From NCBI GenBank assembly GCA_949292785.1, contig CASFBK010000004.1, forward strand, positions 186,001 to 250,000: a stretch of DNA of 64,000 nt, in the 5' to 3' direction. Within the stretch, counting starts at the first letter, position 1. Each line of letters begins with the position of its first letter. The DNA comes from an uncultured Eubacteriales bacterium. GTDB lineage: Bacteria; Bacillota; Clostridia; Lachnospirales; Lachnospiraceae. The notes below the pieces were generated by a model. It had not been told where the DNA came from. It did not search any database and saw nothing but the letters and a program-made list of their open reading frames with translations. The translations under genes were made by a program, and so were the position numbers. Positions 18,022-35,441 of the stretch are shown here, one piece after another.

Positions 18022-18037
18022 AATAAAGCAGTAGAGG

Positions 18038-20314: not shown

Positions 20315-20334
20315 GGTGCTCGTTCACGGGGTTA
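20300..20334 (+). promoter_or_regulatory. LytTR-type direct repeats before the lanthipeptide operon
   Basis: CGTTTACGGGGTTA at 20300 and CGTTCACGGGGTTA at 20321, 13 of 14 bases equal, 21 bp start to start. Spacing and position just before a weak promoter match binding sites of bacteriocin LytTR regulators. Near-identical repeats occur at 35062-35095. Confidence 0.8.
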
Positions 20335-20337
20335 TTA

Positions 20338-20366
20338 TTGAAATATGGTATTTGTCGTGCTATTTT
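20338..20366 (+). promoter_or_regulatory. Predicted regulated promoter of the lanthipeptide operon
   Basis: TTGAAA, 17 bp, TATTTT preceded by GTGC. The second direct repeat ends three bases before -35, and its start is 40 bases before the -10. The same figures hold at 35082-35127. Weak -10, as expected for an activator-dependent promoter. Transcript would cover the 25-aa peptide and then the lan genes. Confidence 0.75.
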
Positions 20367-20388
20367 GTAGAAAAGGAGGACAAATACC

Positions 20389-20466
20389 ATGTTTTTAATT
20401 AATGAAGAAGTATCAACATATGGATGGGGATTTTGGGATGGAATCTGGAAATGGATATGTGGATAG
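20389..20466 (+). CDS. Candidate Trp-rich signal micropeptide 1 (25 aa)
   Basis: A 25-codon ORF with a perfect AAAGGAGGACAAATACC ribosome binding region. Residues: hydrophilic start MFLINEEVSTYG, then Trp at 13, 16, 20 and 22, Asp-17, Lys-21, and an Ile-Cys-Gly end. No double-Gly leader and no signal peptide. It is the first ORF after the LytTR-controlled promoter. A second ORF of the same kind (34989-35045) follows the second kinase, and both end D, one or two residues, WK-x-I-x-G. I infer a secreted or processed inducer for the AgrC-like kinase; a small membrane-active peptide is the alternative. No family known to me. Confidence 0.6.
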   Translation: MFLINEEVSTYGWGFWDGIWKWICG

Positions 20467-20538
20467 GATATATATTCGTAATTTATATGAAATAGTGTTA
20501 TAGCATGCTATCTTTAGAAGAAAGGAAGTATAGAAGTT

Positions 20539-20850
20539 ATGAAAAAGAGAGAATCTAAAAAAAATTCATATAGAGTGTGGTTTGGTATGGCGTTGATGTT
20601 TTTTTTGTTATACACACTCCCGATGATTTTGCATTTTAAAAAGTTTAATGTTGATTTTCGGTCATGTTTCTATACGCCAGAACTATTCTCTAAAAATGGA
20701 ATAATATTTTTGAGAGCATTTGTTTTTGAGTTACCATTTGCAGTGGTACGTTGGACGGTCAACATAGGAATGATTCCACTGGTAGTAATTTGTTTACTTG
20801 GAGGTATTATCTGTTTAACTAGAAAGCGAATAAACAAGGAGAAATCATGA
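20539..20850 (+). CDS. Small two-helix membrane protein of unknown function
   Basis: 103 aa, not recognised. Basic N-terminus (KKRESKKNSYR), helix 1 about residues 12-32, an outside loop with one Cys (residue 43), helix 2 about 73-93, and a basic tail RKRINKEKS. The topology, with both ends inside, is like small immunity proteins (LanI/LanH) or LanT accessory proteins. It is first among the larger genes of the lan operon and its stop overlaps the start of lanM1. GAAAGGAAG lies before the ATG. Confidence 0.7.
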   Translation: MKKRESKKNSYRVWFGMALMFFLLYTLPMILHFKKFNVDFRSCFYTPELFSKNGIIFLRAFVFELPFAVVRWTVNIGMIPLVVICLLGGIICLTRKRINKEKS

Positions 20851-23687
20851 AAACTACGGTTATGAAGACAGCAGAACTGATTGCAGAAGAATCGAAAGAA
20901 GTTTTTGGAAATTTTTATATTTTGTTTGAAAAGGCATTTATAGAAAAATTATATAAGCTGATAGAATCTATAGAATCCGAAATTGAGATACCAGATAAGG
21001 GTTCATTTATCATGCAACATGCATGTAGTATATTGCATGAATTTATGAGGATATCTGTTCGTGTGCTAATTATTGAACTTAATATTGCGAAAGAAAAAAA
21101 CCCAAATGAAAGTAAAGATATATATGAACAGTTTAATAGAGAGCTAAAAAGCAATGCGAAAATAGAGGAGTTAAAGTTAAAATATCCAGTATTATTCCGT
21201 TTGTTGTATGAGATAATTGATTATAGAATAGAACTGATTCATGATTGCTTATGTGCTTTAAGCTTAAACAAACAAGATATAAAAGATATGTTTCATATTA
21301 GTGTAAATACATTATATGAAATGGAAATATCCGATGGGGATAGTCATAATAAAGGAAAAAAGGTAGTGTTACTTAAGTTTCCAGAGGGGAAATTGGTTTA
21401 TAAACCACATGATTTAGGACCTGAAGAATTATTTCTTGAAATATTAGATAAATTAAACTCGAGTAAAAAGATTCGGCATGAACTAGTAGGGGCAAAAGTT
21501 CTTAATTATAAAAAATATGGATTTCAAGAATATATAGATCAGATTCCATGTAAATCTGAGGAAGAAGCAGCTATGTATTACTATAGAGTTGGTGCATTAA
21601 GCGCTATCTTTTATGCGTTGCATTGTGAAGATATTCATTATGAGAATCTGATTTGCGGTGGAACATCTCCATATATTATTGATTTGGAGACGTTGATTAA
21701 GAGTGGTTCGCCAAAGGACTCCTTGCTAGAAGTGCCAGAATTAGTACGGAAATCAATGCATGTTTTTGATGATTCAATTCTTGGGACAATGTTGTATCCG
21801 ATTAATAGTAAAATTTCTTTTTTAGATTTCGATATTGGAGGAATTTCAGGATATCCTAATCAAAAAAGTAGAAAATGGAAATTTTTCCAAGTGGAGGAAG
21901 CGGGTACAGAACGAATACATATTTCTCAGACAGTTGGAAATTCTGCTGAAAAAAAGAATCTGTTATATTATAAGGGGAAAATGGTGGATCCATATTATTT
22001 TTGCGATGAATTGCATCAAGGATTTCGGGATGCTGTTGAGGCAATGATTTATATGGAAGATGAGTTGGTTGAGAGTTTGAAAAAATCGGATGCGTCTGTA
22101 AGACAGGTGTTACGTCCAACCGCACTGTATGGAAAGTTTCTTGAGGTAGCAGAGGGACCTAAATATTTGGGTTCAGAGCAAGAAAGAGAACGGTTATTTG
22201 AAAAATTGTTTAAAGGTTTTAAAGAAAGTGAGCCAGAAAAGAAACGAGTGAGGTATGAAATAAAAGCTTTAATGAGAAATGATATTCCATATTTTGCTCA
22301 AAAGATTAATGAGTCATCATTGATTTGTAATATGGAATCTGTAATAGATAGATATAATATAAATACACCATTTGAAACAGCATACCGGAGAATCAAAGAG
22401 TTAAAAAATCTGAATATTGAAAAGCAGCTGTACTATATTGATGTTTCACTTGGGACGGTTAAGCCGGATGAACACGAAATTGAGAATTTTAGAAGAAAAG
22501 TTCCGACATACCGATTTGAAAATTCGAATTCTATCTTAAAGATGGCAGAAGAAATTGCGGATAAGCTAGAGCAGTTTGCAGAATATACAGAAGATGGAAA
22601 GGCTTGTACCTGGCTGACTGCCTTGTATTCAAACGGTTTAGAACTTGGGTTTTTAAATGAGCATATATATGAAGGGGGCGGAGTGGTACTTTTCCTTTTA
22701 TATTTATGGAAATATACAAACAATAAAAAATATTTGGCACTTGCAAAGTGTGGGATGAATGGTTTAGAAGCGATGGGAATGTGCAAACCATCTGAGGATG
22801 TTTCTTTCTTTACCGGAAGCGTATCGACCATGTATTTATACTATAGTTTTTATAGTATAACAAATGATGAAAGTTATAGAAAAAGCCTGGAGGTATATGT
22901 ACACAAGTGTTATATGCTTTATAGAGAAAGTATAGTAAATAATCTTCCTAAGACAGATGTAATTGCAGGTATATCAGGGGCAATACCAGTTTTATGCGAA
23001 ATGGTTAATAAATGTCAGATTCTTGAAATGAATGACTTGATAGATTTGTTGGCGAAACATTTGTATGATGCGGTATATTCCGGAAAAATAGTTGAAATGA
23101 CTGGATTTGCACATGGTTATGCAGGCATTGCTTTAGCATTATCCACTTATGGAAATTTTAGAAATAAGAGAGAATATCTTTCGATTGCTTTAAAAGTTAT
23201 AGAAAAAGAAAATGAATATTTTAGTGAAAAGGTTAGTAATTGGAAGGATCTTAGAAAAGATGATAGTTATGGAAACTATTGGTGTCATGGTGCACCAGGT
23301 ATTGGTTTGGCCCGATTAAAAATGCTGCCATATTTTGAACAGAAAGATGAAATTATGAAAGATGTAAGTGTGGGATTGAATTGTCTTAGGACGGTGGGGC
23401 TATCCAAGATTAAAGATGATAGTTTGTGCCATGGCTCTATGGGAAATATAGATATGCTTCTTTGGAATGGCAAAAAACTCGGTAGAAAAGATATTCAGGA
23501 GTTTGCTCAGAAAAAGGCAATTGAATTTGTGGACAAAATCAGAAAAGATGGATTTCGTGCAGGTATAGATGGAATGAAAGAGGCTCCATCCTTTATGCTT
23601 GGACTTCCAGGATTAGGGTATACGTTATTAAGATTATTACATCAAGAGATGCCGTCAATACTTGCTTTAGAAATACCAGAAGGATAA
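20847..23687 (+). CDS. lanM1: Class II lanthipeptide synthetase LanM 1
   Basis: 946 aa. LanM phosphorylates Ser/Thr of the precursor, eliminates phosphate to Dha/Dhb, and adds Cys thiols to form (methyl)lanthionine rings. The dehydratase part (about 1-560) shows the kinase-like Lys in KLVYKPHDLGPEELF and IHYENLICGG followed by IIDLETLIKSGSP. The cyclase part (about 590-946) has zinc ligands Cys-813 (YWCHGAPG), Cys-861 and His-862 (LCHGSMG), plus an earlier GFAHGYAG. Four-base overlap with the upstream gene and five-base gap to lanM2. Two LanM genes with two precursors indicate one enzyme per peptide; which pairs with which is not clear. Confidence 0.95.
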   Translation: MKTTVMKTAELIAEESKEVFGNFYILFEKAFIEKLYKLIESIESEIEIPDKGSFIMQHACSILHEFMRISVRVLIIELNIAKEKNPNESKDIYEQFNRELKSNAKIEELKLKYPVLFRLLYEIIDYRIELIHDCLCALSLNKQDIKDMFHISVNTLYEMEISDGDSHNKGKKVVLLKFPEGKLVYKPHDLGPEELFLEILDKLNSSKKIRHELVGAKVLNYKKYGFQEYIDQIPCKSEEEAAMYYYRVGALSAIFYALHCEDIHYENLICGGTSPYIIDLETLIKSGSPKDSLLEVPELVRKSMHVFDDSILGTMLYPINSKISFLDFDIGGISGYPNQKSRKWKFFQVEEAGTERIHISQTVGNSAEKKNLLYYKGKMVDPYYFCDELHQGFRDAVEAMIYMEDELVESLKKSDASVRQVLRPTALYGKFLEVAEGPKYLGSEQERERLFEKLFKGFKESEPEKKRVRYEIKALMRNDIPYFAQKINESSLICNMESVIDRYNINTPFETAYRRIKELKNLNIEKQLYYIDVSLGTVKPDEHEIENFRRKVPTYRFENSNSILKMAEEIADKLEQFAEYTEDGKACTWLTALYSNGLELGFLNEHIYEGGGVVLFLLYLWKYTNNKKYLALAKCGMNGLEAMGMCKPSEDVSFFTGSVSTMYLYYSFYSITNDESYRKSLEVYVHKCYMLYRESIVNNLPKTDVIAGISGAIPVLCEMVNKCQILEMNDLIDLLAKHLYDAVYSGKIVEMTGFAHGYAGIALALSTYGNFRNKREYLSIALKVIEKENEYFSEKVSNWKDLRKDDSYGNYWCHGAPGIGLARLKMLPYFEQKDEIMKDVSVGLNCLRTVGLSKIKDDSLCHGSMGNIDMLLWNGKKLGRKDIQEFAQKKAIEFVDKIRKDGFRAGIDGMKEAPSFMLGLPGLGYTLLRLLHQEMPSILALEIPEG

Positions 23688-23692
23688 TAAAA

Positions 23693-26600
23693 ATGCGTAC
23701 ATATGAAAAAGAAATAAAAGGTTATATGATGTTCATATATCCGGAGTTCAAGCAGTTTGAAGAATTAAAAATTTACTTAAAAGAAAACTGTGTGATGGAA
23801 GATGAGAAAATAATTACTGATTTCCAAAATTCACTAAAACAAGAGTCCGCTCCGGAAGCAATGTTTGTTTCCCAGGAAGACTATAATGAGGTGGTGAAAT
23901 TATTAAAAAAAGAGGAGAGGATTTTTTCCGAATATTTTGCATATTTCATTCAAACTCAGTACAGAGGATTAAAACAAGTCTTTTCTATGAACAAAAATTT
24001 GGAATTAGAGGATAGTCTATTTAATAAGGTCGTTCAATATATGTATAATACATGCTTTCAAAACGCAATACGGACGCTGCTGTTAGAACTTTCAGATGCT
24101 CGGGAAAACCATTTACTTGTTGGAAATAAATCAGTAGAACGTTTTCAATATTTTGAAAAAGAAATACTGGGTAACTGGAATAATTTTCAAATGTTTCATT
24201 CTGAATATCGAATGTTGTATTTATCACTATTAAGGTCTGTAAAATATATTTTAGAATATGTTACAGAAATTTTGGAACATACAAGCCAATACAGTGAGAA
24301 ATTAAATGAAATGTTTGGTGGCGATAAGGGAATTGGTAAATTAAAAGATATCCAGTTTTCAGCAGGAGATACACATAATAATTTTAGAAGTGTTGCAATT
24401 CTTGTATTTGAGAATACAAAAATTGTTTATAAACCACACTCCTTGCAAAGTGACAAAGCGTTTCAGGAGATATTAGAATACATTAATGAAGTGTCTCAAA
24501 AGGGACCGGTTCTAAGGACAATGAAAATAGTTTGTGGGGAGGGATTTGGATGGACGGAGTATATTGAACATAGGCCTTGTCAAAAAATGGAGGATGTATC
24601 TATCTTTTATCAAAAGGCTGGTGTTTTGCTTGGAATTCTATATCTTTTTAATGCAAGTGATTTTCATTTTGAAAATATGATAGCGGATGGAAATAATCCG
24701 GTTCTTATTGATTTAGAGACCTTATTTCATTGTAATATTCCAAATAAGACTTGTGAAAATGATCCGAAGAGTGGCTATGTAACAGCGTGTTGGCATTTAA
24801 ATCATTCTGTTTTTAGTATTGGAATATTGCCTACATACATGCATTTTAAGACAGGAGAAGAAAAAAGAATTCTCAATTTTGGAGGATTGTCAGAAAGTTT
24901 AGATCAAAAGAGCCCATTTTTTACTTATCACATAGAAGATGTAGGATTAGATACGATGCATTTTTCAAAACAGGGATATGAAATTGAAAAATCCCAAAAT
25001 AGTCCAGTGCATGAAGGCATGGATATGCTTCCGCAAAATTATAGCAAAGAGATTATGGAAGGATTTCGTTGGTTGTACGAAACAGTTCTACGAAAAAAAG
25101 ACATATTTACAAAGTTGGTTATTAGTAAGTTTCATTGTACCAGAAATAGAATCGTATTGAAAGCGACCATGACTTATAGTCAGTTGTTAAATATCGCAAC
25201 TTATCCGGATTTTCAAAGAGATGAGATATTTTCAAAGTTTTTATTTTCGCGGATTGGGCTAGTAGAAAGCGCTAGTCAGTGTGTTGATTATGAGATTCAT
25301 GCACTAATGGAAAGAAATGTACCGATATATTATGCGGACTTTTCAAAATGCGACATTATAAATGGAAATGGAGGAGAATATTCTCAGTTATTGAAGCATT
25401 CTCCGATGGAAGAGTTTCTCATGAAGATGCAGATGATATCAGAGGAAGATTTAGAAAGGCAATGTTCTTTTATTCGAACTAGTTATTATGAAAGAAATAT
25501 GGAAGCCAATTATATTAAGGTGGATTTTTTTCATGCAATCGGAGAAAATATTGAAAAAGAACGGTATCTCCAAACGGCGATAAATATAGGGGATTATTTG
25601 GTAGAAAAAAGAAGTTTTTCTGGAATTAATCAGAAAAAAAGGAGAGACCGATTTTGGATTGGTTGTTCACTTGAAAAAACAGAATTTGAGGATTGGATGA
25701 TAGGTCTTGTAGACTTTAAGATGTATGATGGCGCAAGTGGAATTGCACTTTTTCTTCTGTATTTAGCAAAGATATCTGGAGAAGAGAAGTATTTGAGGTA
25801 TGCATATGAAAGTATAGAACCAGTGAGATGTATTATTGAAGATGAGACTTATAATTATGAACGAGGTGTAGGTTCATTTAGCGGAATTTCAGGATATTTT
25901 TATGTATTGTATAAATTTGCTACAGTAAACAAAGATAAACAATTGATGGAATTAGTCAAAAAACGTATTGTAGTGCTTGCTGAATTTGCAGGGAATGAGG
26001 GTAATGAAAATCTGGATTTGATTTCTGGAATTGGTGGTGCAATTGCGGTATTAGTCAGAATAGAACAAACGACAGATGATTTTGAATTGAAGAAAATTGC
26101 ACTCAATACAGCATTATCTTGTTATGAAACATTATATCAAAATACGATAGATAAAAATGGTTTAGCTTACATAAGATATTCAGGATTTGCACATGGAATA
26201 GCAGGAATCATTCCGTATTTGTTTATGCTTTATAAAACAAGTGGAAGAAAAGATATTTATCATTATACAATGCGTTTGCTGGAATGTGAGAGACAACAAT
26301 TTCAAAAAAGAAATAAAGGTTTTTTGCAAGGGTGGTTTGGAGAGAAAAAAACTGAAAAAGTTGTAGCTAGTTGGTGTCACGGTTCTTGTGGGTTTCTTCT
26401 TGAGAGATTGTTATTAAAGCAAGCTGGTTATAAAGACTCATACATAGAAAAAGAAATTGAGTTTGCAGTGGATCATATTAAAAAAGAAGGGATAGGAACA
26501 ATTCCTGTGTATTGTCATGGAGACTTAGGAAATTTATCTATTTTAAAGATGTATGCAACTATTTATGGGGATAAGGAACTTTTTAAACGCTGCAATGAAG

Positions 26601-26761
26601 TTTTTTCACGGATTTTTGTGGATTATTTAGAACCCAAATGGAACAATCAAGAAGCTGTGTATTCAAAATATAGTGGTTTGATGGTTGGACAATCAGGAAT
26701 CGGTTATTCTTGTTTAGAAGCTATATATCCTGAAATATCTAATTTCTTATGGTTGGAATAG
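23693..26761 (+). CDS. lanM2: Class II lanthipeptide synthetase LanM 2
   Basis: 1022 aa, second LanM. Dehydratase marks: KIVYKPHSLQSDKAF, DFHFENMIADG, PVLIDLETLFHC. Cyclase zinc ligands: Cys-895 (SWCHGSCG), Cys-941 and His-942 (VYCHGDLG), with GFAHGIAG upstream. It is clearly diverged from LanM1 beyond these motifs, typical of two-component lantibiotics in which each synthetase serves one precursor. An insertion rich in Lys/Arg (about residues 640-660, NQKKRRDRFW) is not in LanM1. Ends 13 bases before lanT. Confidence 0.95.
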   Translation: MRTYEKEIKGYMMFIYPEFKQFEELKIYLKENCVMEDEKIITDFQNSLKQESAPEAMFVSQEDYNEVVKLLKKEERIFSEYFAYFIQTQYRGLKQVFSMNKNLELEDSLFNKVVQYMYNTCFQNAIRTLLLELSDARENHLLVGNKSVERFQYFEKEILGNWNNFQMFHSEYRMLYLSLLRSVKYILEYVTEILEHTSQYSEKLNEMFGGDKGIGKLKDIQFSAGDTHNNFRSVAILVFENTKIVYKPHSLQSDKAFQEILEYINEVSQKGPVLRTMKIVCGEGFGWTEYIEHRPCQKMEDVSIFYQKAGVLLGILYLFNASDFHFENMIADGNNPVLIDLETLFHCNIPNKTCENDPKSGYVTACWHLNHSVFSIGILPTYMHFKTGEEKRILNFGGLSESLDQKSPFFTYHIEDVGLDTMHFSKQGYEIEKSQNSPVHEGMDMLPQNYSKEIMEGFRWLYETVLRKKDIFTKLVISKFHCTRNRIVLKATMTYSQLLNIATYPDFQRDEIFSKFLFSRIGLVESASQCVDYEIHALMERNVPIYYADFSKCDIINGNGGEYSQLLKHSPMEEFLMKMQMISEEDLERQCSFIRTSYYERNMEANYIKVDFFHAIGENIEKERYLQTAINIGDYLVEKRSFSGINQKKRRDRFWIGCSLEKTEFEDWMIGLVDFKMYDGASGIALFLLYLAKISGEEKYLRYAYESIEPVRCIIEDETYNYERGVGSFSGISGYFYVLYKFATVNKDKQLMELVKKRIVVLAEFAGNEGNENLDLISGIGGAIAVLVRIEQTTDDFELKKIALNTALSCYETLYQNTIDKNGLAYIRYSGFAHGIAGIIPYLFMLYKTSGRKDIYHYTMRLLECERQQFQKRNKGFLQGWFGEKKTEKVVASWCHGSCGFLLERLLLKQAGYKDSYIEKEIEFAVDHIKKEGIGTIPVYCHGDLGNLSILKMYATIYGDKELFKRCNEVFSRIFVDYLEPKWNNQEAVYSKYSGLMVGQSGIGYSCLEAIYPEISNFLWLE

Positions 26762-26774
26762 TGGAGGCTAAGAA

Positions 26775-28913
26775 GTGAAAAAAAAGTATCATGTACCATT
26801 AGTCAAGCAGTTTTCACAGACAGAGTGCGGATTATGTTGTTGCTTGATGATATTAAAATATTACAAAAGCAGAGAAACTTTCAAACAGCTGCAAGATGAT
26901 GTGGATGTTGGAAGAGACGGTCTTTCGATACGAAAAATGAAAGATATATTAACATCTCGCGATATGGAAGCTTTCGTATATAAAGTAAAAACCGTTGAGG
27001 GGTTAAAGACGATAAAAAAACCGTTTATTGCTTATTGGCAGGAAAAGCATTTTATTGTAGTCGAAAAGATTAAAAAAAATAAATACTATGTAAAGGATCC
27101 GGCGGAGGGAGATTTGATTATTCCGGAAGATAAGTTTGCAGAAAGTTTTTCCGGTTATGTACTTGTGGCGTCACCGACATCAAACTATGTAGTGAAAAAG
27201 ACAAAAAGCCAGAATCCATGGCTAGATTCTTTTCAGAGCTTGATAAAATATAAGAGATTAGTGGCAGAAATATTGATTTTTTTGATTTTGTCGTATTTGA
27301 TTGGATTGTTTATGCCTGTCTTGATTCAGAAGATTATTGATAAAGCATTGATTTCAAATACAATATCGTCATTAAATGCTTTTTATTTACTGATTGCGGT
27401 ACTTTTGGTTGCGCATGTAGTCATGTCGATATTAAAAAGTTTTAAACTTACGAGGTTAAACATAGTTGTAGGTTACAGGCTTGAGGCAGATACATATAAA
27501 CATTTACTTAGTTTGCCCTATAAATTTTTTGAACAGAGAACTACTGGAGATTTGATATATAAGTTATCGAGTACAAGTGCAGTAAAAGAATTGATTGCAA
27601 CGCAGTTGATAGCGGGTGTTATCGATATTGGAACATTGGTTATTATGTTTATATATATGCTCTATAAATCAGTATGGCTTTCTTTGATAGCATTGTTGTT
27701 TTTTTTCTTAAATGTTTTGATTACAATGTATTTTCAGCCTTATATAACAAGAGCTGTGAAAGATGAAGTAAATGCAAGAACTAAAATGCAGTCTTCGCAG
27801 GTAGAGAGTATATATTCTATTCAATCAGTAAAATTAGCAAATTTGGAAAGTGCAATATATGACGTATGGAATAAAGAATACCAAAAATCTGTTGTAGCAT
27901 TTAAAAAGAAAATTATTATCAGCGGTTTTCAAAGTTGCGTGAATAGTACGATGTCAACGTTTGTGCCAATAGGAATACTTTTGCTTGGCATTTGGAATTA
28001 TTTTAACCATACGTTTTCTCTTGGTGAAGCAGTTGCGTTTGAATCAATTTGTGTTTCTTTTATGAGTTATACATCGCAGATTTTAAGTTGTTATATGCAG
28101 TTTGTTACAACAGATGAATATCTGCAGAGGATAGGCGACATCTGGTATAGTCAATCAGAAAGACGTGTTGCGAAAATACATTCTCCTATTGAGAAGGGAG
28201 AAATAAAAATTGAAAATGTTTCGTTTTCTTATAATAAAAGTGCAATGAATGTTTTAAAAAATATAAATATAGATATTCCAGCAGGGAGTAGAGTAGCATT
28301 TGTAGGGGCATCGGGTTCTGGAAAAAGTACATTAAGTAAACTGGTGACGGGGTTATATCGACCTACAAAAGGAGAAATTTATTATGATGGAGTTCCGTTG
28401 GAAAATTATGACAGAGAAATGATTCAAAATCAAATAGGAATTGTGCCTCAGGATGCAATGCTTTTTAATAAGACAATTTATGAAAATATTGTTATGAATT
28501 CGTTAGATGTTGAATTGGAAAAAGTGAAGGAATGTTGTCGTTATGCATGTATTGATAAAGAAATAGAACAGATGCCTATGGGATATAACACAATTATTTC
28601 AGAAATGGGATTGAATTTGTCTGGAGGGCAAAGACAACGAATATTGCTTGCAAGAGCTCTTTTGTCTCACCCTAAAGTAATTGTTTTAGATGAAGCGACA
28701 AGTAGCTTAGATAATAGAAATGAAGCAAGAATTACAGAATATTTGAGAAAAATCGGTTGTACTCAAATTGTGATTGCCCATCGATTGTCCACTGTGATTG
28801 ATGCCGACAGCATATATGTGTTTAATGAAGGTACTGTAATCGAATGTGGAACGCATGCTGATTTAATGAAACAAAAAGGAAATTATTACAAACTGTATAA
28901 AAGAGCATGCTAG
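26775..28913 (+). CDS. lanT: Lanthipeptide exporter/leader peptidase LanT (C39-ABC)
   Basis: 712 aa. N-terminal C39 peptidase (1-135) with Cys-18 (QTECGLCC), His-92 (KHFIVVEKI) and Asp-108 (YVKDPAEG), which cleaves double-Gly-type leaders. Six membrane helices follow (about 155-450). The C-terminal ATPase has Walker A GASGSGKST, signature LSGGQRQR, Walker B VIVLDEATSS and the switch His in IAHRLST. It processes and exports both precursors. GTG start behind GGAGG. No separate LanP protease gene was found in the cluster. Confidence 0.96.
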   Translation: MKKKYHVPLVKQFSQTECGLCCCLMILKYYKSRETFKQLQDDVDVGRDGLSIRKMKDILTSRDMEAFVYKVKTVEGLKTIKKPFIAYWQEKHFIVVEKIKKNKYYVKDPAEGDLIIPEDKFAESFSGYVLVASPTSNYVVKKTKSQNPWLDSFQSLIKYKRLVAEILIFLILSYLIGLFMPVLIQKIIDKALISNTISSLNAFYLLIAVLLVAHVVMSILKSFKLTRLNIVVGYRLEADTYKHLLSLPYKFFEQRTTGDLIYKLSSTSAVKELIATQLIAGVIDIGTLVIMFIYMLYKSVWLSLIALLFFFLNVLITMYFQPYITRAVKDEVNARTKMQSSQVESIYSIQSVKLANLESAIYDVWNKEYQKSVVAFKKKIIISGFQSCVNSTMSTFVPIGILLLGIWNYFNHTFSLGEAVAFESICVSFMSYTSQILSCYMQFVTTDEYLQRIGDIWYSQSERRVAKIHSPIEKGEIKIENVSFSYNKSAMNVLKNINIDIPAGSRVAFVGASGSGKSTLSKLVTGLYRPTKGEIYYDGVPLENYDREMIQNQIGIVPQDAMLFNKTIYENIVMNSLDVELEKVKECCRYACIDKEIEQMPMGYNTIISEMGLNLSGGQRQRILLARALLSHPKVIVLDEATSSLDNRNEARITEYLRKIGCTQIVIAHRLSTVIDADSIYVFNEGTVIECGTHADLMKQKGNYYKLYKRAC

Positions 28914-28977
28914 TAATTTTGTATTATCGTAGGGAATTTCCTACTTTAATAAATAGAATAACAAAGGAGGGAAAAAA

Positions 28978-29214
28978 ATGAGTAAAAATCCAATTTTCAG
29001 AAAAGAGATGAATTTGAATACAACTTCATGTGGTAATGTATTCGAAGAAATAACTCAGAATTCACAGACCATGGATACAATCAATGGTGCTGGCTGGAAA
29101 CAAACTATAGTTTGTACACTTACTCAGGGAACAATTGGTTGTGTTGCAAGCTATGCGATGGGAAATAGCGGCTATTGCTGTACATATTCCAAAGAATGCA
29201 CAAAGTGTTGCTAA
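28978..29214 (+). CDS. lanA1: Two-peptide lantibiotic alpha precursor (lichenicidin/haloduracin-alpha type)
   Basis: 78 aa. The leader begins SKNPIFRKE, like the KNPxxR start of lichenicidin alpha, and ends in G-A at 37-38 (INGA), a LanT site. The predicted core (39-78) ends GNSGYCCTYSKECTKCC, which aligns with the lipid II-binding C-terminal rings of lichenicidin and haloduracin alpha (GNxGxxCTxTxEC). Core Cys at 46, 55, 67, 68, 74, 77 and 78: seven, while lichenicidin alpha has four. Strong AAAGGAGGG. Highest-copy gene of the locus is expected to be this one. The protease site and ring pattern are inferred. Confidence 0.93.
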   Translation: MSKNPIFRKEMNLNTTSCGNVFEEITQNSQTMDTINGAGWKQTIVCTLTQGTIGCVASYAMGNSGYCCTYSKECTKCC

Positions 29215-29238
29215 TATCGAAAAGAAAGGGAAAAGCTA

Positions 29239-29436
29239 ATGAAAAATTATGAAGAAATTGCAGGAATTATTCCTGAAAGCGAGCTTGATGAACTCTTAGA
29301 GGACAAGACCGGTGCGGGAACACCTACACCAAGTTCATGGACTTGTATAACGGCTATAACAGCTATAACAGCTCAGCTTACAACGGGATGGGATTGTTGC
29401 CCTACCGGTGCTTGTACACATTCTTGCCGTTTTTAA
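29239..29436 (+). CDS. lanA2: Two-peptide lantibiotic beta precursor (lichenicidin-beta type)
   Basis: 65 aa. Acidic leader (EEIAGIIPESELDELLED) ending TGAG at 24-27; LanT should cut after Gly-Ala. The core starts TPTPSSWTCITA, nearly the start of lichenicidin beta (TTPATSSWTCITA), and ends with Cys-53, Cys-54, PTGAC and THSC, matching the CPTxxCTxxC end of beta peptides. An ITA triplet is repeated three times (38-46), matching a 9-base DNA tandem repeat. Five core Cys. GAAAGGGAAAAGC precedes ATG. Expected to act with the alpha peptide by making pores. Confidence 0.92.
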   Translation: MKNYEEIAGIIPESELDELLEDKTGAGTPTPSSWTCITAITAITAQLTTGWDCCPTGACTHSCRF

Positions 29437-29479
29437 TAAGCAAGAAAAAATAAGTATGATTTAACCAATGAATCATATT

Positions 29480-29526
29480 AACACTCTTATACATTTTTAA
29501 AAGAGGGATGTATAAGAGTGTTTCTT
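29480..29526 (+). terminator. Terminator after the precursor genes
   Basis: A 15-bp perfect stem, AACACTCTTATACAT with its inverse, around 13 bases, then TTTCTTC. The weak T-run would allow partial read-through into the flavoprotein and immunity genes, a common way to make precursors in excess. Confidence 0.85.
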
Positions 29527-29575
29527 CAATATAACATATAATTAAGAAAAACACAACAATACAAGAGGAAAAATT

Positions 29576-30286
29576 ATGAGAGTATTAGCTTATAGTGGAA
29601 GTATGAGAGGACATACATCTAAAACATATCAAATAATCAAGCAAATGACAGATGAGCTAAAAGAAAAGCGTATGGGGCATGTTGAAGTTGACATATTATG
29701 TGCGAATAATTTAAAACTTGAAATCTGTAGAGGATGCATGAATTGTTTTGAAAGTAAATGTAGTATTGTAGATGATTTGAGTGTAGTTTTGAATAAAGTA
29801 AAAAGTGCAGATGTTGTTATTTTAGGAAGTCCTGTTTATGTTCATCAAGTAACGGCGCCTACTAAAAATTTAATAGACCGTTTAGGAACGTTGTGTTACT
29901 TATTCCAACTATTGGGTAAACTTGGAATTACGCTAAGTGTGTCTAATACGAATGGAAACAAACCGGTCAATGCATATTTATATAAAATATTAGATACATG
30001 GGGAGCTGATGTGGTAGCAAATGTAGCAATTCAACAATATGTTCAGACAGAGGAACAAATAAATAATGCAATATCGGTAGCTGTGAATCGTGTATTAGAA
30101 GCTTATACAAAAAGAGAAAGAAATTGTAGTGAAAATCAGAAGAGATTATTTAATCTATATAAAAATGTGTTTTATAATTCAAAAGATTCAGAGTTAAAAA
30201 AATATTGGATAGAGAATCAATATTTTAAATTTGATGATGTGGAGGCATTGTTACATCAAAAAATGCAAGAACTGGATGTGTTGTAG
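29576..30286 (+). CDS. Flavodoxin-fold NAD(P)H-dependent FMN oxidoreductase
   Basis: 236 aa. The FMN-phosphate loop is YSGSMRGHTSK; a Cys cluster CRGCMNCFESKC with the IVDDL stretch is typical of clostridial flavodoxin-like reductases; VVILGSPVYVHQVTAPTKNLIDR is the second FMN-binding block. It lies between the precursor genes and the immunity ABC genes, in the same direction, so it likely serves the lanthipeptide. Possible jobs are reduction of Dha to D-Ala (as done by LanJ enzymes in other clusters), other redox tailoring, or thiol maintenance. No direct evidence chooses between them. Confidence 0.82.
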   Translation: MRVLAYSGSMRGHTSKTYQIIKQMTDELKEKRMGHVEVDILCANNLKLEICRGCMNCFESKCSIVDDLSVVLNKVKSADVVILGSPVYVHQVTAPTKNLIDRLGTLCYLFQLLGKLGITLSVSNTNGNKPVNAYLYKILDTWGADVVANVAIQQYVQTEEQINNAISVAVNRVLEAYTKRERNCSENQKRLFNLYKNVFYNSKDSELKKYWIENQYFKFDDVEALLHQKMQELDVL

Positions 30287-30315
30287 TAAATTTATCATTA
30301 AAAGGAAAAGAAAAA

Positions 30316-31209
30316 ATGGAAAATATAATTAGTGTTAATAACGTTAATAAAAAATTAAATGGTAAACGAGTAATTAGTGGTGTCAATCTTAATGTAAAAA
30401 AAGGGGATATATATGGACTTGTTGGCAAAAATGGTGCAGGAAAAACAACGTTGATGAGACTGATATTGTCTATGTTAAGTGTTGATTCCGGCACCATAGA
30501 TATTCCAAGTAGAATAATTACTGAAAAGAAAATTGGAGCATTAATTGAAAATCCAGCTTTTTATCCATATTTGACTGTAAAAGAAAATTTAAATTATTAT
30601 AGAATTTTAAAAAGTATACCGGATAAAAGCTGCGTAGATGAAATTATAGAGTCAGTGGGATTGAAAGACGCATATAATAAAAAATTTAAACAATTGTCAT
30701 TAGGAATGAAACAAAGACTAGGTATAGGTCTTACGCTTTTAGGGAATCCGGAATTATTGATTTTGGACGAACCGATTAATGGATTAGACCCGGAAGGAAT
30801 TATGGAAATGAGAGAGCTGTTTTTAAATAAGAATAAAACAGAGGGAATTACCATATTGATATCAAGTCATATTTTGACAGAGTTGTCACAGGTTTCAAAC
30901 CGATTTGGCTTTATTGATAATGGTGTGCTAATAAAAGAAGTTACAAAGGAACAAATTGAAAATGAAACTTCCGAACAGGCAATAATAAAGGTAGATGATG
31001 TTGAAAAAGCTATTATTATTTTGAAGGAAAATGGAATAAATAATGAAATTAAAGAGGGCAATGAGATTTTAATTGAAAGCAAAGATAAATCAATTTCTAA
31101 TATCAACCAGTTGATGTGTAATAATGGTATATGTGTATATGAATTAAAAAGAAATATTGTTTCGCTGGAAGAATATTTTTTAGAACTTTTAAAAGAGGGG
31201 GATAAGTAA
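30316..31209 (+). CDS. lanF: Lantibiotic immunity ABC transporter ATPase (LanF-like)
   Basis: 297 aa ATPase of the BcrA/LanF type. Walker A GLVGKNGAGKTTL, Q-loop region, signature LSLGMKQRLGIG, Walker B LLILDEPINGLDPEG. The Glu that follows the usual Q-loop is the LanF-type mark but I did not verify it. Together with the two membrane proteins that follow it should expel the lantibiotic from the producer membrane. Overlaps lanE by one base. Confidence 0.92.
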   Translation: MENIISVNNVNKKLNGKRVISGVNLNVKKGDIYGLVGKNGAGKTTLMRLILSMLSVDSGTIDIPSRIITEKKIGALIENPAFYPYLTVKENLNYYRILKSIPDKSCVDEIIESVGLKDAYNKKFKQLSLGMKQRLGIGLTLLGNPELLILDEPINGLDPEGIMEMRELFLNKNKTEGITILISSHILTELSQVSNRFGFIDNGVLIKEVTKEQIENETSEQAIIKVDDVEKAIIILKENGINNEIKEGNEILIESKDKSISNINQLMCNNGICVYELKRNIVSLEEYFLELLKEGDK

Positions 31210-31952
31210 TGGGGGCATTTATAAAAGCTGAATTAAGAAAAATAAAAAATAAAAAAAGTTGTTATATTATTCCGGTAATAATAAGTATTATAGGGTTAAT
31301 GATTGCCAGGTTTTTTGCAAAGGGCGCTATTGATTCTAAATTAATACTAAATAATTTGAGTATTGTAAATATACTTGGTTGTCTTATTTTGGTATTTGTT
31401 TTATATGTGGTATCGGAAGAGTTTTCATATGACACATTGAAGAATTATTATATATTAAACTATGACCTTGAAGATATTTTACTATGGAAGGTTGTGGTTC
31501 AACTAATAAATGCAATTATGCTATTTGTTTTTTTTGTAATTGTATTTGCTATTTCAATCTTTTTAATTTCGCCTAATGATGATAGTGTAAAAAAAATATT
31601 AGCTGATGCAATTATAAAATTGGTTATATCTGTTCCGGGCTATGTGTTTTCTATATTGATTTTGAATATGATTTTTTTAAAAATTAAAAGTGTAATAGTT
31701 ACGATTCTTATTTATTATTATGGTTTCATACAGATTTTTTTTATTTTGATGATTACAGGCGGTAGTTGTGAAAATAGAGTTATAAGAATAATGTTTCTTC
31801 CAATACAATTAGGATATTTGTTTGAAAATAAATTATCGGCTGATGTGGTGATATGTTCTTTTGTTTCGGAATTATTATATATGATAGCTTTTGGAATTTT
31901 ATATAAAATGGAAGTTGGTAAATTAGTAAATAAAGAGTTGCGTGGTCGGTGA
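31209..31952 (+). CDS. lanE: Immunity ABC transporter permease 1 (LanE-like)
   Basis: 247 aa, about six membrane helices, very hydrophobic, ABC-2 type. The N-terminus MGAFIKAELRKIKNKKSCY is the amphipathic start common to LanE/LanG permeases. Translationally coupled on both sides (one-base overlap with lanF, four with lanG). E versus G naming is by gene order only. Confidence 0.82.
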   Translation: MGAFIKAELRKIKNKKSCYIIPVIISIIGLMIARFFAKGAIDSKLILNNLSIVNILGCLILVFVLYVVSEEFSYDTLKNYYILNYDLEDILLWKVVVQLINAIMLFVFFVIVFAISIFLISPNDDSVKKILADAIIKLVISVPGYVFSILILNMIFLKIKSVIVTILIYYYGFIQIFFILMITGGSCENRVIRIMFLPIQLGYLFENKLSADVVICSFVSELLYMIAFGILYKMEVGKLVNKELRGR

Positions 31953-32671
31953 TGAAAGAAATTATATGTGGAGAAATTTTTAAAAGTAAAAAAAATAAAA
32001 GTTATAAAATTATATATTGGGTAGCTATTTGTTTAGTAACATTCTATTGTATTTATTTGAATCTATATATGAAAATTGATAAATGTGAGATTCTTTTTAG
32101 TTGCTATTTGGGAATTGTTGATTATATGTTTCCAATTATGGCGCTTTTCTGTTTAAATTTCTTTGAAGAGTATCGCGAAAATACGTTAAAAAATATGACT
32201 GTGATGAGGAGTAGAAAAGAAATTTTTAATGGAAAAGTCTTATTTCAAATAATGGAATCGGTGGTAATATACCTATCTGTGATTATAGTTTTTGTTATAT
32301 ATAGTTTAATTATGATAAAGGATCACGTTGATATGTTTACAGTAAAAGCATATATAGCGGGATTTGTTTTTGGATTGTTTCTTATAATAAGGAACGTTTT
32401 GTTTACAGATGTGTTAATTATGATAATTAAAAATGAAGTGCTTATTGTAATTGCATATGTTTTAATTACAAATTATGCAGATAGCATCCTTAAGTTTATT
32501 ACTAATGGGGACGGAAGTATTGGTGTTTGGTTATTCCCTAAGCAGGTCATATATTTGAAAATGTTTGATTTTTCGCAGGGAGATTATATTGCGAATTTAG
32601 CTGCGTGTTTGATTATGGTAATTGTCAATATGGTTTTGGGAAAGAGTGTTTTTTGTAAGTCTTCTATTTGA
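31949..32671 (+). CDS. lanG: Immunity ABC transporter permease 2 (LanG-like)
   Basis: 240 aa, about six membrane helices, ABC-2 type, beginning MKEIICGEIFKSKKNKSYK. Forms the heterodimeric membrane part with the preceding permease. Last gene of the lan locus; a hairpin terminator follows 20 bases later. Confidence 0.8.
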   Translation: MMKEIICGEIFKSKKNKSYKIIYWVAICLVTFYCIYLNLYMKIDKCEILFSCYLGIVDYMFPIMALFCLNFFEEYRENTLKNMTVMRSRKEIFNGKVLFQIMESVVIYLSVIIVFVIYSLIMIKDHVDMFTVKAYIAGFVFGLFLIIRNVLFTDVLIMIIKNEVLIVIAYVLITNYADSILKFITNGDGSIGVWLFPKQVIYLKMFDFSQGDYIANLAACLIMVIVNMVLGKSVFCKSSI

Positions 32672-32690
32672 TATGGGAAATTTAGAGGAG

Positions 32691-32728
32691 AAAGACTTTA
32701 TCGCAAGAAATTGTGATAGAGCCTTTTT
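32691..32728 (+). terminator. Terminator after the lan immunity genes
   Basis: AAAGACTTTATCGCAA pairs imperfectly with TTGTGATAGAGCCTTT and ends in a T-run. Near-identical to the atp terminator at 18038, so it belongs to the repeated regulator cassette. Confidence 0.82.
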
Positions 32729-32878
32729 CATTTTTTAGTAGTAAGTTATAGTAGAATTTTCAAATTTCGTACTCCGATTCAAGAATTGAGAATTAATTTT
32801 TTACATTTATCATGTACAAAAGAATTTCCATGAAATATAATAAAAAATAATGGGGGAAGAATCGGAGCAACAGCGCAA

Positions 32879-33577
32879 ATGATAAAAGTAGGAATCTGTG
32901 ATGATGAAAAGATTGTATTAGAATTATTGAAATCATTAGTAGAACAATGTCTAAAGGAACTAGAAGAAGATAGTACCATACTGACATTCGATTCCGGTGA
33001 AAAGCTATTAGAAGAAGCAAAGGGCTTAGATATATTATTTCTGGATATTGAGATGCCCGGAATGGACGGAATCGAAACAGGAAAAAGAATCCCAAGGCAG
33101 AATCCGGATTGTAAGATTATTATGGCAACCAGCAGGCAGGAACGTTTCAAAGAGGCATTCAAAATAAATGCATTCCGATTTGTAACCAAGCCTTTTCAAA
33201 AAGAAGAGATAAAAGAAGCATTAAAAGATGTATTTCAGACCAGAGTCGGTATGGAGAAAATAGAAGTGTATCGGGAACGGGTGCCCTATACTTTTTTTCA
33301 AAAGGATATTCTGTATATGGAATCGATGGACAGCTCGGTTGAGTTTGTTTTAAGGGAGTGTGTATTTCGAAAGGAAACCTCTCTAAAGGAATTAGAAACC
33401 ATATTGGATGACAGAATATTTTATCGGGTAAATAAGCAATGTATCGTAAATATGCAGCATATTAATACATACAAAAACGGAGTCATAAGGATTGGAGCAA
33501 CAGAAATAAGGGTTTCCATCAGAAAGAAGAAGGAATTTGAGAAGGCATATATTATGTTTGACGTAAGTTACAGATAA
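32879..33577 (+). CDS. LytTR-type response regulator 2
   Basis: 232 aa, paralogue of the regulator at 18327. Receiver with DDE at 8-10 and phospho-acceptor Asp-56 in LFLDIEMP; LytTR domain with MEKIEVYRERV, DILYMESMDSSVEF and VNKQCIVNMQHI. The two proteins share long identical stretches (KERFKEAF/QERFKEAF, FRFVTKPF, FRKETSL.ELE). With near-equal DNA-binding domains they may bind the same CGTTT-N-CGGGGTTA repeats and cross-talk. Starts behind GGGGGAAGAATCGGAGC. Confidence 0.92.
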   Translation: MIKVGICDDEKIVLELLKSLVEQCLKELEEDSTILTFDSGEKLLEEAKGLDILFLDIEMPGMDGIETGKRIPRQNPDCKIIMATSRQERFKEAFKINAFRFVTKPFQKEEIKEALKDVFQTRVGMEKIEVYRERVPYTFFQKDILYMESMDSSVEFVLRECVFRKETSLKELETILDDRIFYRVNKQCIVNMQHINTYKNGVIRIGATEIRVSIRKKKEFEKAYIMFDVSYR

Positions 33578-33589
33578 GGAGACCTATTA

Positions 33590-34909
33590 ATGAAAGAAAT
33601 CATATGTTTTAATTTTTTGCTGGAACTAACAAAATATTTCTTGTTTGCATATGTTCTGTTTGGAGTAAAATTTCAAAGAAAGTGGTTTGCTGTAAGTGGC
33701 GTAGTATTATATACGGTTTTCATACTGACAGGAGTTCTGCCCATAGAAAAACTGCAGAATGTATCGTATATTACAGTTCTAATCGTTGATGTTATTGTAC
33801 TTGTTGTTATGGATTCGCCAATAAAAAGTAGAATTTTTAATACATTAAAAGTGTTTTTCTTATTGATTTGTTTGGACAGTGCTGTAGGCGGGGTGGTAAG
33901 CATGATAGAAAATGATATGTTTTCCCTGGAATTGTCCTTGGAGAAGAAATGGGTGATTACCAATATCATATCTATCTCGGCATTATTGCTTGTTTTTTGG
34001 GGGAAGAAAAGGCAGATTATGGAGAATAACAGATGGGTGCAGTTGCTAAAAAAAGGCGCAATCTATACCTGTATTGTGATTATGGCTCTGGCAATACCCT
34101 TTACAATTACGGGATTAACGTATATGGCAGAAAGAATTAATGACCCAGTGCTTATGAAAGGAATGCAGATATTAAGAGCAGTGTTCTTTTTTAGTGTGAT
34201 AGCACTTGCTATATTTATTATTTATGTGAATGATACCAATAAAAAAATGAAAAAGTATCTGGAAATGGAAAAGACCTTAAAGGATACCCAGAAGAGTTAT
34301 TATGAGGCAATGTTGTCTCGGGAAGAGGATACCAGAAGATTTCGTCATGATGTATTAAATCATATAATCTGTATCAGAGAACTGGTGACAAAAGGAGAAA
34401 TAACGCAGGCAGAAGCCTATGTGGAGGAGATGCAGGGCAACATCGTAGAGATTCAGCAGAAGTGTTACAGTGTAGGAAATACCATTATAGATGCCTTTCT
34501 GAACTATTATGTACAGATGTTGGAAGAAGATGTGGAAGTAAAGATTACAGGATGTATGGCAGAAGAAGTTTCCATCAGTGATTTAGAGTTATGTACGATT
34601 TTCTCTAATCTTATTAAAAACAGTGTAGAAGAATTAAAGAAGCCTGGTGAAGGAAGAAAATATTTAGAGGTAAAAGTAAATTCCGGTCAACAGGCGTTTC
34701 AGATAGAAGTTTCTAACAGTATTTCAAAGCAGCTAGAAGAAACAAAAGAAAACCTGCCCAAAACCACCAAAAAAGATAAAAAAAATCATGGGATTGGATT
34801 AAGAAACGTGAAGGATACGATAGAAAAAAATCACGGAACCTTTCAGTGGAAGCGGGAAGAATCTGGATTTAAGACGGTGGTGACATTACCTTTGAAATGT
34901 AATATATAG
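33590..34909 (+). CDS. AgrC-like membrane histidine kinase 2 (GHKL)
   Basis: 439 aa, paralogue of the kinase at 19013. About six membrane helices in the first 215 residues, then a dimerisation helix with His-253 in FRHDVLNHI, N-box NLIKNSVEEL and G-box NHGIGLRNVKDTIEK. The sensor helices have diverged much more than the kinase core, as expected if each recognises its own peptide. AAGGAGACC precedes ATG. The 18-codon Trp-rich ORF follows 79 bases downstream. Confidence 0.9.
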   Translation: MKEIICFNFLLELTKYFLFAYVLFGVKFQRKWFAVSGVVLYTVFILTGVLPIEKLQNVSYITVLIVDVIVLVVMDSPIKSRIFNTLKVFFLLICLDSAVGGVVSMIENDMFSLELSLEKKWVITNIISISALLLVFWGKKRQIMENNRWVQLLKKGAIYTCIVIMALAIPFTITGLTYMAERINDPVLMKGMQILRAVFFFSVIALAIFIIYVNDTNKKMKKYLEMEKTLKDTQKSYYEAMLSREEDTRRFRHDVLNHIICIRELVTKGEITQAEAYVEEMQGNIVEIQQKCYSVGNTIIDAFLNYYVQMLEEDVEVKITGCMAEEVSISDLELCTIFSNLIKNSVEELKKPGEGRKYLEVKVNSGQQAFQIEVSNSISKQLEETKENLPKTTKKDKKNHGIGLRNVKDTIEKNHGTFQWKREESGFKTVVTLPLKCNI

Positions 34910-34933
34910 TAGATATATGTCGATATAAAATTG

Positions 34934-34962
34934 TTGAAAACAGGTTCTTTTTGTAGTATGTT
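34934..34962 (+). promoter_or_regulatory. Promoter of micropeptide 2
   Basis: TTGAAA, 17 bp, TATGTT (overlapping a second TATAA). No direct repeats upstream, so this promoter may be constitutive, unlike the one before micropeptide 1. Confidence 0.55.
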
Positions 34963-34988
34963 ATAAAAAAAGACAGGAGGACAAAGTT

Positions 34989-35045
34989 ATGTTACTGACG
35001 GGTGGTAGCTGGTGGTACGATTTTTGGAAAAAAATATTTGGATAG
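34989..35045 (+). CDS. Candidate Trp-rich signal micropeptide 2 (18 aa)
   Basis: Translation MLLTGGSWWYDFWKKIFG, behind ACAGGAGGACAAAG, a ribosome binding region shared with micropeptide 1 (GGAGGACAAA). Three Trp, Asp-11, and the end WK-x-I-x-G match micropeptide 1. There is no leader or secretion signal. Position right after an AgrC-like kinase suggests a signalling peptide. The WW pair recalls XIP pheromones of streptococci, but those act on Rgg proteins and I see no relationship. A short toxic or bacteriocin-like peptide is the alternative. Confidence 0.6.
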   Translation: MLLTGGSWWYDFWKKIFG

Positions 35046-35061
35046 TATTGACAAAAATCAA

Positions 35062-35127
35062 CGTTTGCGGGGTTAAGTCAACGTTTGAGGGGTTATTCTT
35101 GAAAAAAGGTATGCATTGTGCTATTTT
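35062..35127 (+). promoter_or_regulatory. Second LytTR-type repeat promoter (reads into non-coding DNA)
   Basis: CGTTTGCGGGGTTA at 35062 and CGTTTGAGGGGTTA at 35082 (20 bp apart), TTGAAA at 35099-35104, 17 bp, TATTTT at 35122-35127 preceded by GTGC. The geometry equals that at 20300-20366. Downstream GCAGGAAGAGAAATACC looks like a worn copy of the micropeptide 1 ribosome binding region, without an ORF behind it. Confidence 0.75.
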
Positions 35128-35133
35128 GAAAAA

Positions 35134-35289
35134 AGCAGGAAGAGAAATACCGGCATACAGAGGGGATATTTCAAGATAAGCAGAGGAGAAGTGTTGGGAA
35201 GGTAGCGGGAGAACTTAAAAATAAAGAATATAGGGTAAGGGAAATGTGTCTTGTTGTAAAATGAGAATTTTATAGCAAGGCACATTTTT
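35134..35289 (+). ncRNA. Possible LytTR-controlled non-coding transcript
   Basis: From the expected start of the 35122 promoter to the terminator is about 155 bases with no ORF longer than a few codons. It could be a small RNA under peptide control, or merely the scar of a lost operon. No known RNA family was recognised. Confidence 0.35.
35242..35289 (+). terminator. Terminator at the end of the regulator 2 cassette
   Basis: AAATGTGTCTTG pairs with CAAGGCACATTT (one wobble/mismatch), with an inner TTGTAAAAT/AATTTTATAG pairing and a T-run. Confidence 0.8.
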
Positions 35290-35336
35290 GGTGGAAAATT
35301 TCTGCAAAACCGTATGGCAATTATAGTGAAGGGGTG

Positions 35337-35355: not shown

Positions 35356-35441
35356 AAGCAACAGAACAAATTAGGAGAAAAATAGGTTAAGATGAGAGCA
35401 TGATATATATATATCTTAAAATAAAGAAATGAGGTGAATAA

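Follow-up and report, generated by a model that had tools for sequence, protein, structure and literature searches.

What do the AgrC-like histidine kinases of Lachnospiraceae sense where no AgrB gene adjoins them? The question is raised by a 64,000-nucleotide (nt) stretch of DNA from an uncultured Eubacteriales bacterium of this family (contig CASFBK010000004.1; the whole stretch is called the window below). In it, two kinases of the GHKL type, each paired with a LytTR response regulator, are each followed by a tiny open reading frame (ORF) rich in tryptophan. From the evidence below, these ORFs probably encode leaderless, amphipathic, Trp-rich helical autoinducers of the adjoining kinases. 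The genes concerned are:

18327..19016, plus strand: LytTR response regulator 1 (Response_reg and LytTR, Pfam)
19013..20314, plus strand: AgrC-like GHKL histidine kinase 1 (HATPase_c_5, Pfam)
20389..20466, plus strand: tiny ORF1, 25 amino acids (aa), MFLINEEVSTYGWGFWDGIWKWICG, candidate autoinducer and first ORF of a lanthipeptide operon
32879..33577, plus strand: LytTR response regulator 2 (LytTR, Pfam)
33590..34909, plus strand: AgrC-like GHKL histidine kinase 2 (GHKL, Pfam; 42% identical to kinase 1)
34989..35045, plus strand: tiny ORF2, 18 aa, MLLTGGSWWYDFWKKIFG

Pfam domains and a PDB profile match identify both pairs as an AgrC-type GHKL kinase with a LytTR regulator. Among PDB sequences, the profile of the kinase family matches the AgrC kinase module of S. 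aureus best (6e52, E 2.2e-8), and an AlphaFold model of kinase 2 has about seven N-terminal helices (mean predicted local distance difference test score 60.9, predicted template modelling score 0.41). The first-pass annotation had described both ORFs exactly in coordinates, length, ribosome binding region (GGAGGACAAA) and ending, and had correctly placed each directly behind a kinase: ORF1 starts about 75 nt past the end of the kinase 1 gene and ORF2 about 80 nt past kinase 2. The common ending that it reported, D, then one or two residues, then WK-x-I-x-G, is exact for these two ORFs but fails as a fixed motif across the family, where the core read by eye is approximately [D/N/S]-x-W-[E/K/D]-[W/L]-[L/I]-x-x-[I/L]-[L/F]-G and its loose form fits 32 of the 62 peptides collected below. 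It had overlooked an operator, the lanthipeptide operon headed by ORF1, a short RNA predicted after ORF2, and a third copy. This third peptide, MVCLSVLGDFWKWFFGN, lies behind another kinase of the same genome (locus L006/L022); the genome has 19 GHKL matches, and such an ORF was found behind three of the 11 whose downstream region was read (L003-L013). The exact string GGAGGACAAA-NNN-ATG was tried as a marker and rejected. It has two matches genome-wide, ORF2 and a gene resembling a lipoprotein binding protein, so the string is no marker in itself; ORF1, with a spacing one base longer, is not matched.

Kinase profiles and sequences were used to search 61 relatives, 397 family genomes (mostly one per genus; 47 matching at E<=1e-60), 29 genomes of the genus (21 matching) and, for named GTDB contigs, the best 80 of 177 relatives. 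Reading by eye gave 62 kinase-peptide pairs, 47 from 42 genomes with a G handle and 15 from named contigs. Loci were scored by one criterion: a start preceded by a Shine-Dalgarno sequence at most 250 nt from the kinase stop, 12-30 aa, at least one Trp, and at least 45% of residues from FILMVWYC. This criterion was fixed after part of the family-set data was known and was applied unchanged to the named contigs; some of the 62 pairs miss it (e.g. L079, L087). Loci with too little sequence were dropped before counting (L052 and L076 in the family set, L219 among the named contigs).

A search of Lachnospiraceae for tiny ORFs behind AgrC-like kinases, as the first-pass annotation had proposed, found them to be recurrent. 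On the named contigs, 18 of 50 kinases pass against 3.27 expected from dinucleotide shuffles and one of 50 on the reverse strand; before L132, L133 and L140 were removed as read earlier, the figures were 20 of 53 against 2.88, with one on the reverse strand. Fifteen of the 18 look like the family and L172, L181 and L212 do not. Twelve of the 15 named pairs are labelled Lachnospiraceae or by a genus that we assign to it; the remaining three have less specific labels. The family set gave 25/60 against 2.98 expected by the same shuffles and 0/60 on the reverse strand, with two positives (L084, L099) that do not look like family members. The set of the window's own genus and genome, most of which was used to build the profile, gave 21/25 against 1.60 expected. 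The excess is tied to the kinase: no kinase scoring below 185 bits passes (0/11), and in the window and 23 further loci a passing ORF follows 4 of 211 genes other than kinases, none of the four being family-like. A class-wide survey of 391 genomes, in which 28 of 29 new kinase loci were scored (best loci only), gave a single positive; this locus, L243, is L083 under a second handle and belongs to the window's own family, as do L244 and L248. One scan of viral contigs found no relative. Plasmid and phage records held distant kinases only (<60% identity); of the two plasmid records examined, that of L. eligens has an AgrB gene preceding the pair, and in R. albus pRUMAL03 we saw a RiPP (ribosomally synthesized and post-translationally modified peptide) cluster and no Trp ORF.

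The ORFs also change as coding sequence does. In seven ortholog pairs, synonymous differences number 33.0 at 64.5 sites (pS 0.51) and nonsynonymous differences 44.0 at 343.5 sites (pN 0.13). The first-pass annotation had named absence of conservation judged by synonymous sites as a ground for rejecting its signalling-peptide reading, and these values show the reverse. By codon position the differences number 22, 19 and 36, with the third in excess; the pair L038/L133 has no such excess. ORF2 compared with L026 has 9.5 synonymous differences at 9.3 sites and 8.5 nonsynonymous differences at 44.7 sites. By this codon-level pattern the tiny ORFs are under purifying selection and, judged together with the counts above, the two in the window are real genes and far from isolated.

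The 62 peptides are 15-29 aa long (median 20), very hydrophobic, and have a Trp content of 11.8% and a mean net charge of -0.6. Their starts lie 47-227 nt after the kinase, a range that follows from the choice of pairs. For 37 of the 62, the helical moment falls in the top tenth of the peptide's own shuffles (6.2 expected), and no beta pattern was seen; they thus share the short, leaderless, amphipathic helix of phenol-soluble modulins (PSMs) and delta-lysin. Trp is sometimes replaced by Phe. Variation among L041-L044, L048 and L132 is greater in the N-terminal half of the peptide than in its core, approximately WELLKRLFGW. Three peptides tried against NCBIfam and Pfam, as very short queries, had no match. 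Peptide distances correlate with kinase distances (Mantel test; four of the 62 kinases are fragments <350 aa), at 0.55 for the sensor half and 0.52 for the catalytic half, with partial r values of 0.23 and 0.09, respectively.

Most of the ORFs stand behind what looks like an operator. The elements of the window are:

20300..20334, plus strand: LytTR-type direct repeat CGTTTACGGGGTTA / CGTTCACGGGGTTA, step 21 nt (pattern search)
20338..20366, plus strand: promoter TTGAAA-17-TATTTT, with TG before the second hexamer and 3 nt from repeat to first hexamer (consensus scan)
34934..34962, plus strand: promoter-like TTGAAA-17-TATGTT before ORF2, with no such direct repeat upstream
35062..35095, plus strand: LytTR-type direct repeat, step 20 nt, after ORF2, conserved in L026 and L027 (pattern search)
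35099..35127, plus strand: promoter TTGAAA-17-TATTTT, in form and in its 3-nt gap to the repeat like that at 20338

The promoter at 20338 is supported by its position and not by the scan, which found one against 1.5 in shuffles. The repeat is presumably the binding site of the LytTR regulator. Direct repeats of 11 nt with at least 9 matches were sought in the interval that begins 40 nt ahead of the kinase stop and runs up to the ORF. A step of 20 or 21 nt occurs in 51 of the 62 loci, against 2.27 expected from letter shuffles; other steps from 14 to 31 nt occur in 0-3 loci each. The third copy, MVCLSVLGDFWKWFFGN, is preceded by a perfect 11-nt direct repeat with a 20-nt step. With the repeat between kinase and ORF in 51/62, the peptide is usually the first gene of a promoter presumably controlled by its kinase. 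Locus L129 keeps the paired repeats, but an early stop cuts its tiny ORF to MVLSSNDRF, whereas the peptide is complete in L038 and L133; this is possibly a natural loss.

The familiar routes to a peptide signal were looked for around the pairs. No AgrB gene had been noted nearby, and this extends to the relatives: none was seen within 10 kb (kilobases) of the 47 pairs of the G-handle genomes (PF04647, 69 genomes; some contigs end sooner), and the nearest on the same contig as a pair is 10.4 kb away (G002). With the same model, 22 of the 42 G-handle genomes with a pair have no AgrB match at all; six of these 22 are <90% complete. In the window's genome, L003 has AgrB directly behind the kinase and L004 has it about 1 kb off on the other strand, and both lack the tiny ORF. 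Cys occurs in 11 of 62 peptides, and no AgrD-type precursor, with its conserved Cys and acidic tail, was recognised among the tiny ORFs, to which this reading was confined, no genome-wide AgrD search having been made. Nor do the peptides contain a double-Gly leader, which would run for about 15-30 aa and close with GG or GA/GS; the whole ORFs are 15-29 aa, and GG, where present, is mostly near the C end. They do share one trait with double-Gly inducers, that of a gene adjoining the kinase under a LytTR-type repeat. In one genus of another clostridial family, three of four scored kinases (L246, L247, L251) have in the same slot what reads as a double-Gly-leader-like peptide, with the pattern MSKKNVCM.IKADQFE.L.N.EAMY.DGG (in L246 MSKKNVCMDIKADQFEVLENDEAMYVDGG, then a hydrophobic core).

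What the peptides would switch on differs from locus to locus. Between the two window systems, and after ORF2, lie:

20539..20850, plus strand: 103-aa ORF between ORF1 and LanM, with no Pfam or NCBIfam family over cut-off
20847..23687, plus strand: type 2 lanthipeptide synthetase LanM, copy 1 (DUF4135 and LANC_like, TIGR03897)
23693..26761, plus strand: LanM, copy 2 (DUF4135 and LANC_like)
26775..28913, plus strand: C39-peptidase ABC exporter, LanT-like (Peptidase_C39 and ABC domains)
28978..29214, plus strand: lantibiotic precursor, plantaricin C family (NF000539, E 1.8e-13)
29239..29436, plus strand: lantibiotic precursor, LchA2/BrtA2 family (NF038161, E 2.9e-10)
30316..32671, plus strand: ABC transporter ATPase, resembling TIGR03740 below cut-off, and two ORFs read as its membrane parts
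35130..35290, plus strand: predicted short RNA, about 160 nt, with no protein cargo

By family and domain matches, the genes behind ORF1 are a two-peptide class II lantibiotic cluster with two LanM proteins and a C39 exporter; the transporter at 30316..32671 possibly provides self-protection against the lantibiotic. The first-pass annotation was therefore wrong that no double-Gly leader lies nearby: the operon-like run of ORF1 holds two lanthipeptide precursors with GAG-type leaders and a C39-peptidase transporter. These precursors are about 8.5 kb downstream of ORF1 and are lantibiotic precursors, with no obvious inducer among them. The RNA predicted after ORF2 is conserved in L026 and L027 and ends in a 23-base-pair hairpin (35240-35289), which accounts for most of its fold z of -6.98; this hairpin is A+U-rich and was not listed by the terminator scan. 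An Rfam search of window positions 18000-36000 found no match. Behind MVCLSVLGDFWKWFFGN is a Clo7bot-like radical S-adenosylmethionine (SAM) RiPP cluster (L022:7816-12027), in which the maturase reaches a score of 578 where the cut-off is 600, and two small Cys-rich peptides reach 17 and 20 where it is 31.

Cargo ORFs behind the kinase were listed in 21 further loci (L022, L142-L161), several of which end early at contig edges, L158 at once. By Pfam, LanM is found in L161, and in L147 behind apparent mobile-element genes; radical-SAM proteins are found in L022, L153 and L156. Of 10 proteins from seven other loci, seven have no Pfam match, and many such cargo proteins look secreted from a reading of their N-termini. 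The ORF lists of L142, L143, L149, L150, L152, L159 and L160 hold no obvious protein cargo, and the first four are loci with a predicted RNA. Between loci, then, the cargo is unrelated: a lantibiotic, Clo7bot-like or other radical-SAM clusters, unknown proteins, or a predicted RNA.

In one branch of relatives, the tiny ORF lies near the 5' end of a larger predicted structured RNA, 400-615 nt long:

L041:1005-1404, L042:2782-3187, L043:966-1389 and L044:1011-1411: predicted structured RNAs
L048:803-1417, L132:806-1417 and L039:2789-3334: predicted structured RNAs

The order in this branch is paired repeats right behind the kinase, a promoter, an invariant GACTTTCCGA, the ORF, copies of UACNAAAGA, their complement, and a terminator-like hairpin. 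Each of six RNAs has 1-5 copies of UACNAAAGA; the complement is TCGGAAAGT, or TTGGAAAGT in L043. In minimum-energy folds of five full-length RNAs (L041, L042, L044, L048, L132), the 5' and 3' elements are predicted to pair at 8 or 9 of 9 positions, with z from -3.0 to -4.2. Rfam searches of 11 loci gave two chance-level matches far below cut-offs and nothing convincing.

These results are consistent with a circuit in which the peptide would leave the cell or partition into the membrane and act on the kinase at its multi-helix sensor region. In response, the kinase would phosphorylate its LytTR regulator, the regulator would bind the direct repeat with its 20/21-nt step, and the promoter would transcribe the peptide gene first and then the cargo. 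A peptide gene behind its own switch would give positive feedback. System 1 would thereby control the two-peptide lantibiotic, system 2 the short RNA, and the third copy the Clo7bot-like RiPP cluster. The first-pass annotation had called the ORFs unleadered or processed inducers of their cognate kinases. What stands of this is that they are real, selected genes tied to the kinase, with no AgrB seen within 10 kb of the pairs in the G-handle genomes, a LytTR-type repeat and promoter mostly upstream, and unrelated cargo; the inducer role itself, with translation, export, receptor binding and kinase activation, is what we infer. We count in favour of a signal that the ORF adjoins the kinase whatever the cargo and that it has the position for positive feedback in most pairs. 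Recurrence, purifying selection, the lack of the ORF at the two own-genome kinases with AgrB, and the double-Gly-leader-like peptide in the same slot of another genus speak for it as well, as does peptide divergence that tracks kinase divergence, somewhat more in the sensor half.

Several results weigh against an autoinducer. The criterion is passed by no ORF in 35/60 loci of the family set and 32/50 of the named contigs, and in the class-wide sample no kinase outside the family has a tiny ORF (0/25). With most related kinases, and 25/25 outside the family, passing no criterion, a large part of the receptor family must respond to another signal. No exporter was seen travelling with the peptides in the neighbourhoods read. 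In ORF2 (L001), L026 and L027 the repeats come after the ORF, so that autoinduction is not evident for these three. The partial r between peptide and kinase is only 0.06 once close relatives are dropped, and the co-variation is thus mainly co-inheritance. Finally, the amphipathic helix would suit a membrane-active or lytic effector equally well.

The peptides could accordingly be such surface-active effectors, like PSMs, delta-lysin or leaderless bacteriocins, with the real signal of the agr-like kinase being something else. Small size, the missing leader and amphipathicity all fit, an effector gene could also stand behind LytTR-type repeats, and the ORF of some relatives is inside a predicted structured RNA as delta-lysin is in RNAIII. 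Nevertheless we think this unlikely: the ORF adjoins the kinase regardless of cargo, the mean net charge is slightly negative rather than cationic, no immunity or exporter gene was seen travelling along, and hardly any locus would then have a gene for the signal.

Less likely again is an intracellular peptide that tunes the kinase within the membrane, as the small proteins MgrB and SafA do with PhoQ; made from the kinase's own promoter, it could be a feedback inhibitor. The lack of any export signal or linked exporter fits such a modulator, as do the strong hydrophobicity, the tie to the kinase and the LytTR-type repeat upstream. However, one related genus has a double-Gly-leader-like, and hence export-type, peptide in the same slot, and a pure inhibitor would leave the activating signal unexplained.

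It is very improbable that the peptide is inert and the ORFs serve as translated leaders or as RNA elements (attenuators or 5' untranslated spacers). Several do lie in conserved 5' regions and their Trp codons recall the trp leader, but selection acts at the codon level and the helical pattern is in the peptide. Trp attenuation in particular was ruled out, the cargo read having no tryptophan genes and Trp not being obligatory, since Phe sometimes replaces it. Chance ORFs in leader regions are hardly credible: short ORFs are common and shuffles give 5-7% per locus, but they are already contradicted by purifying selection and by a five- to eightfold excess in the named contigs and the family set, with near absence from the other strand, and the shared core also speaks against them.

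Returning to the autoinducer, a broader version is attractive but tentative, and we would not yet rely on it. Across Lachnospiraceae the peptides would form a pheromone class of leaderless, Trp-rich helices acting in the membrane and directly on AgrC-like kinases, with many 'words' and a single kinase for each. They would turn on lantibiotics, radical-SAM RiPPs or secreted proteins. The boldest part concerns the RNA branch, where the target would be the RNAIII-like RNA of 400-615 nt; this RNA would itself encode the signal, so that signal and regulatory RNA would be one transcript. Delta-lysin is encoded inside RNAIII, and the likeness to it is that of a predicted structured RNA encoding a short amphipathic peptide, in some relatives.

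Among known systems, staphylococcal agr has a similar GHKL kinase, LytTR regulator and paired-repeat operator; it differs in that here the short peptide behind the kinase is proposed as the signal itself, and a cyclic thiolactone signal is not expected, since no AgrB was seen near the kinase. ComC-ComD, plantaricin A and BlpC are alike in having a linear peptide, the same broad kinase class, LytTR operators and bacteriocin cargo. The slot in L246, L247 and L251 recalls these double-Gly-leader inducers, whereas the tiny ORFs, 15-29 aa in total, have neither leader, Gly-Gly cleavage site nor pairing with a peptidase-transporter. Streptococcal SHP and ComS/XIP are likewise very short hydrophobic ORFs, and XIPs contain Trp; their receptors are cytosolic Rgg/ComR proteins, reached by oligopeptide permease import. 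PSMs and leaderless class II bacteriocins are similar short leaderless amphipathic helices and differ as effectors, not one beside each kinase. SIP-RopB of Streptococcus pyogenes also has a secreted leaderless peptide as its signal; SIP has 8 residues, and the receptor is a cytosolic Rgg-type protein met after re-import, not a membrane kinase (PMC6565748). Full-text searches of open-licence PubMed Central papers turned up neither leaderless peptides that serve AgrC-type kinases nor an account of this peptide family. As peptide quorum sensing, the system would join a known receptor class to a new kind of ligand gene.

Members of the Lachnospiraceae abound in the guts of mammals, and AgrB is missing beside many of their AgrC-like kinases. 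If the autoinducer reading is true, a large group of orphan kinases would gain the ligands they lack, AgrC-type receptors would be able to use a leaderless gene product, and synthesizable keys of 15-29 residues to silent lantibiotic and RiPP clusters would be at hand. The Trp-rich peptides may be a type of chemical signal not described before, one that activates genes for antibiotics and other products. Usual gene finders report only ORFs longer than these, which would explain why they are unlisted.

A minor observation concerns where the systems sit. In the window (43499-46168) and in L142, L143 and L150, kinase loci of the kinase-2 type and of the divergent L041 type are both near the same amidohydrolase gene, and a 4Fe-4S protein gene is likewise near in the window, L143 and L150. 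It looks as if different kinase-peptide systems share one chromosomal slot.

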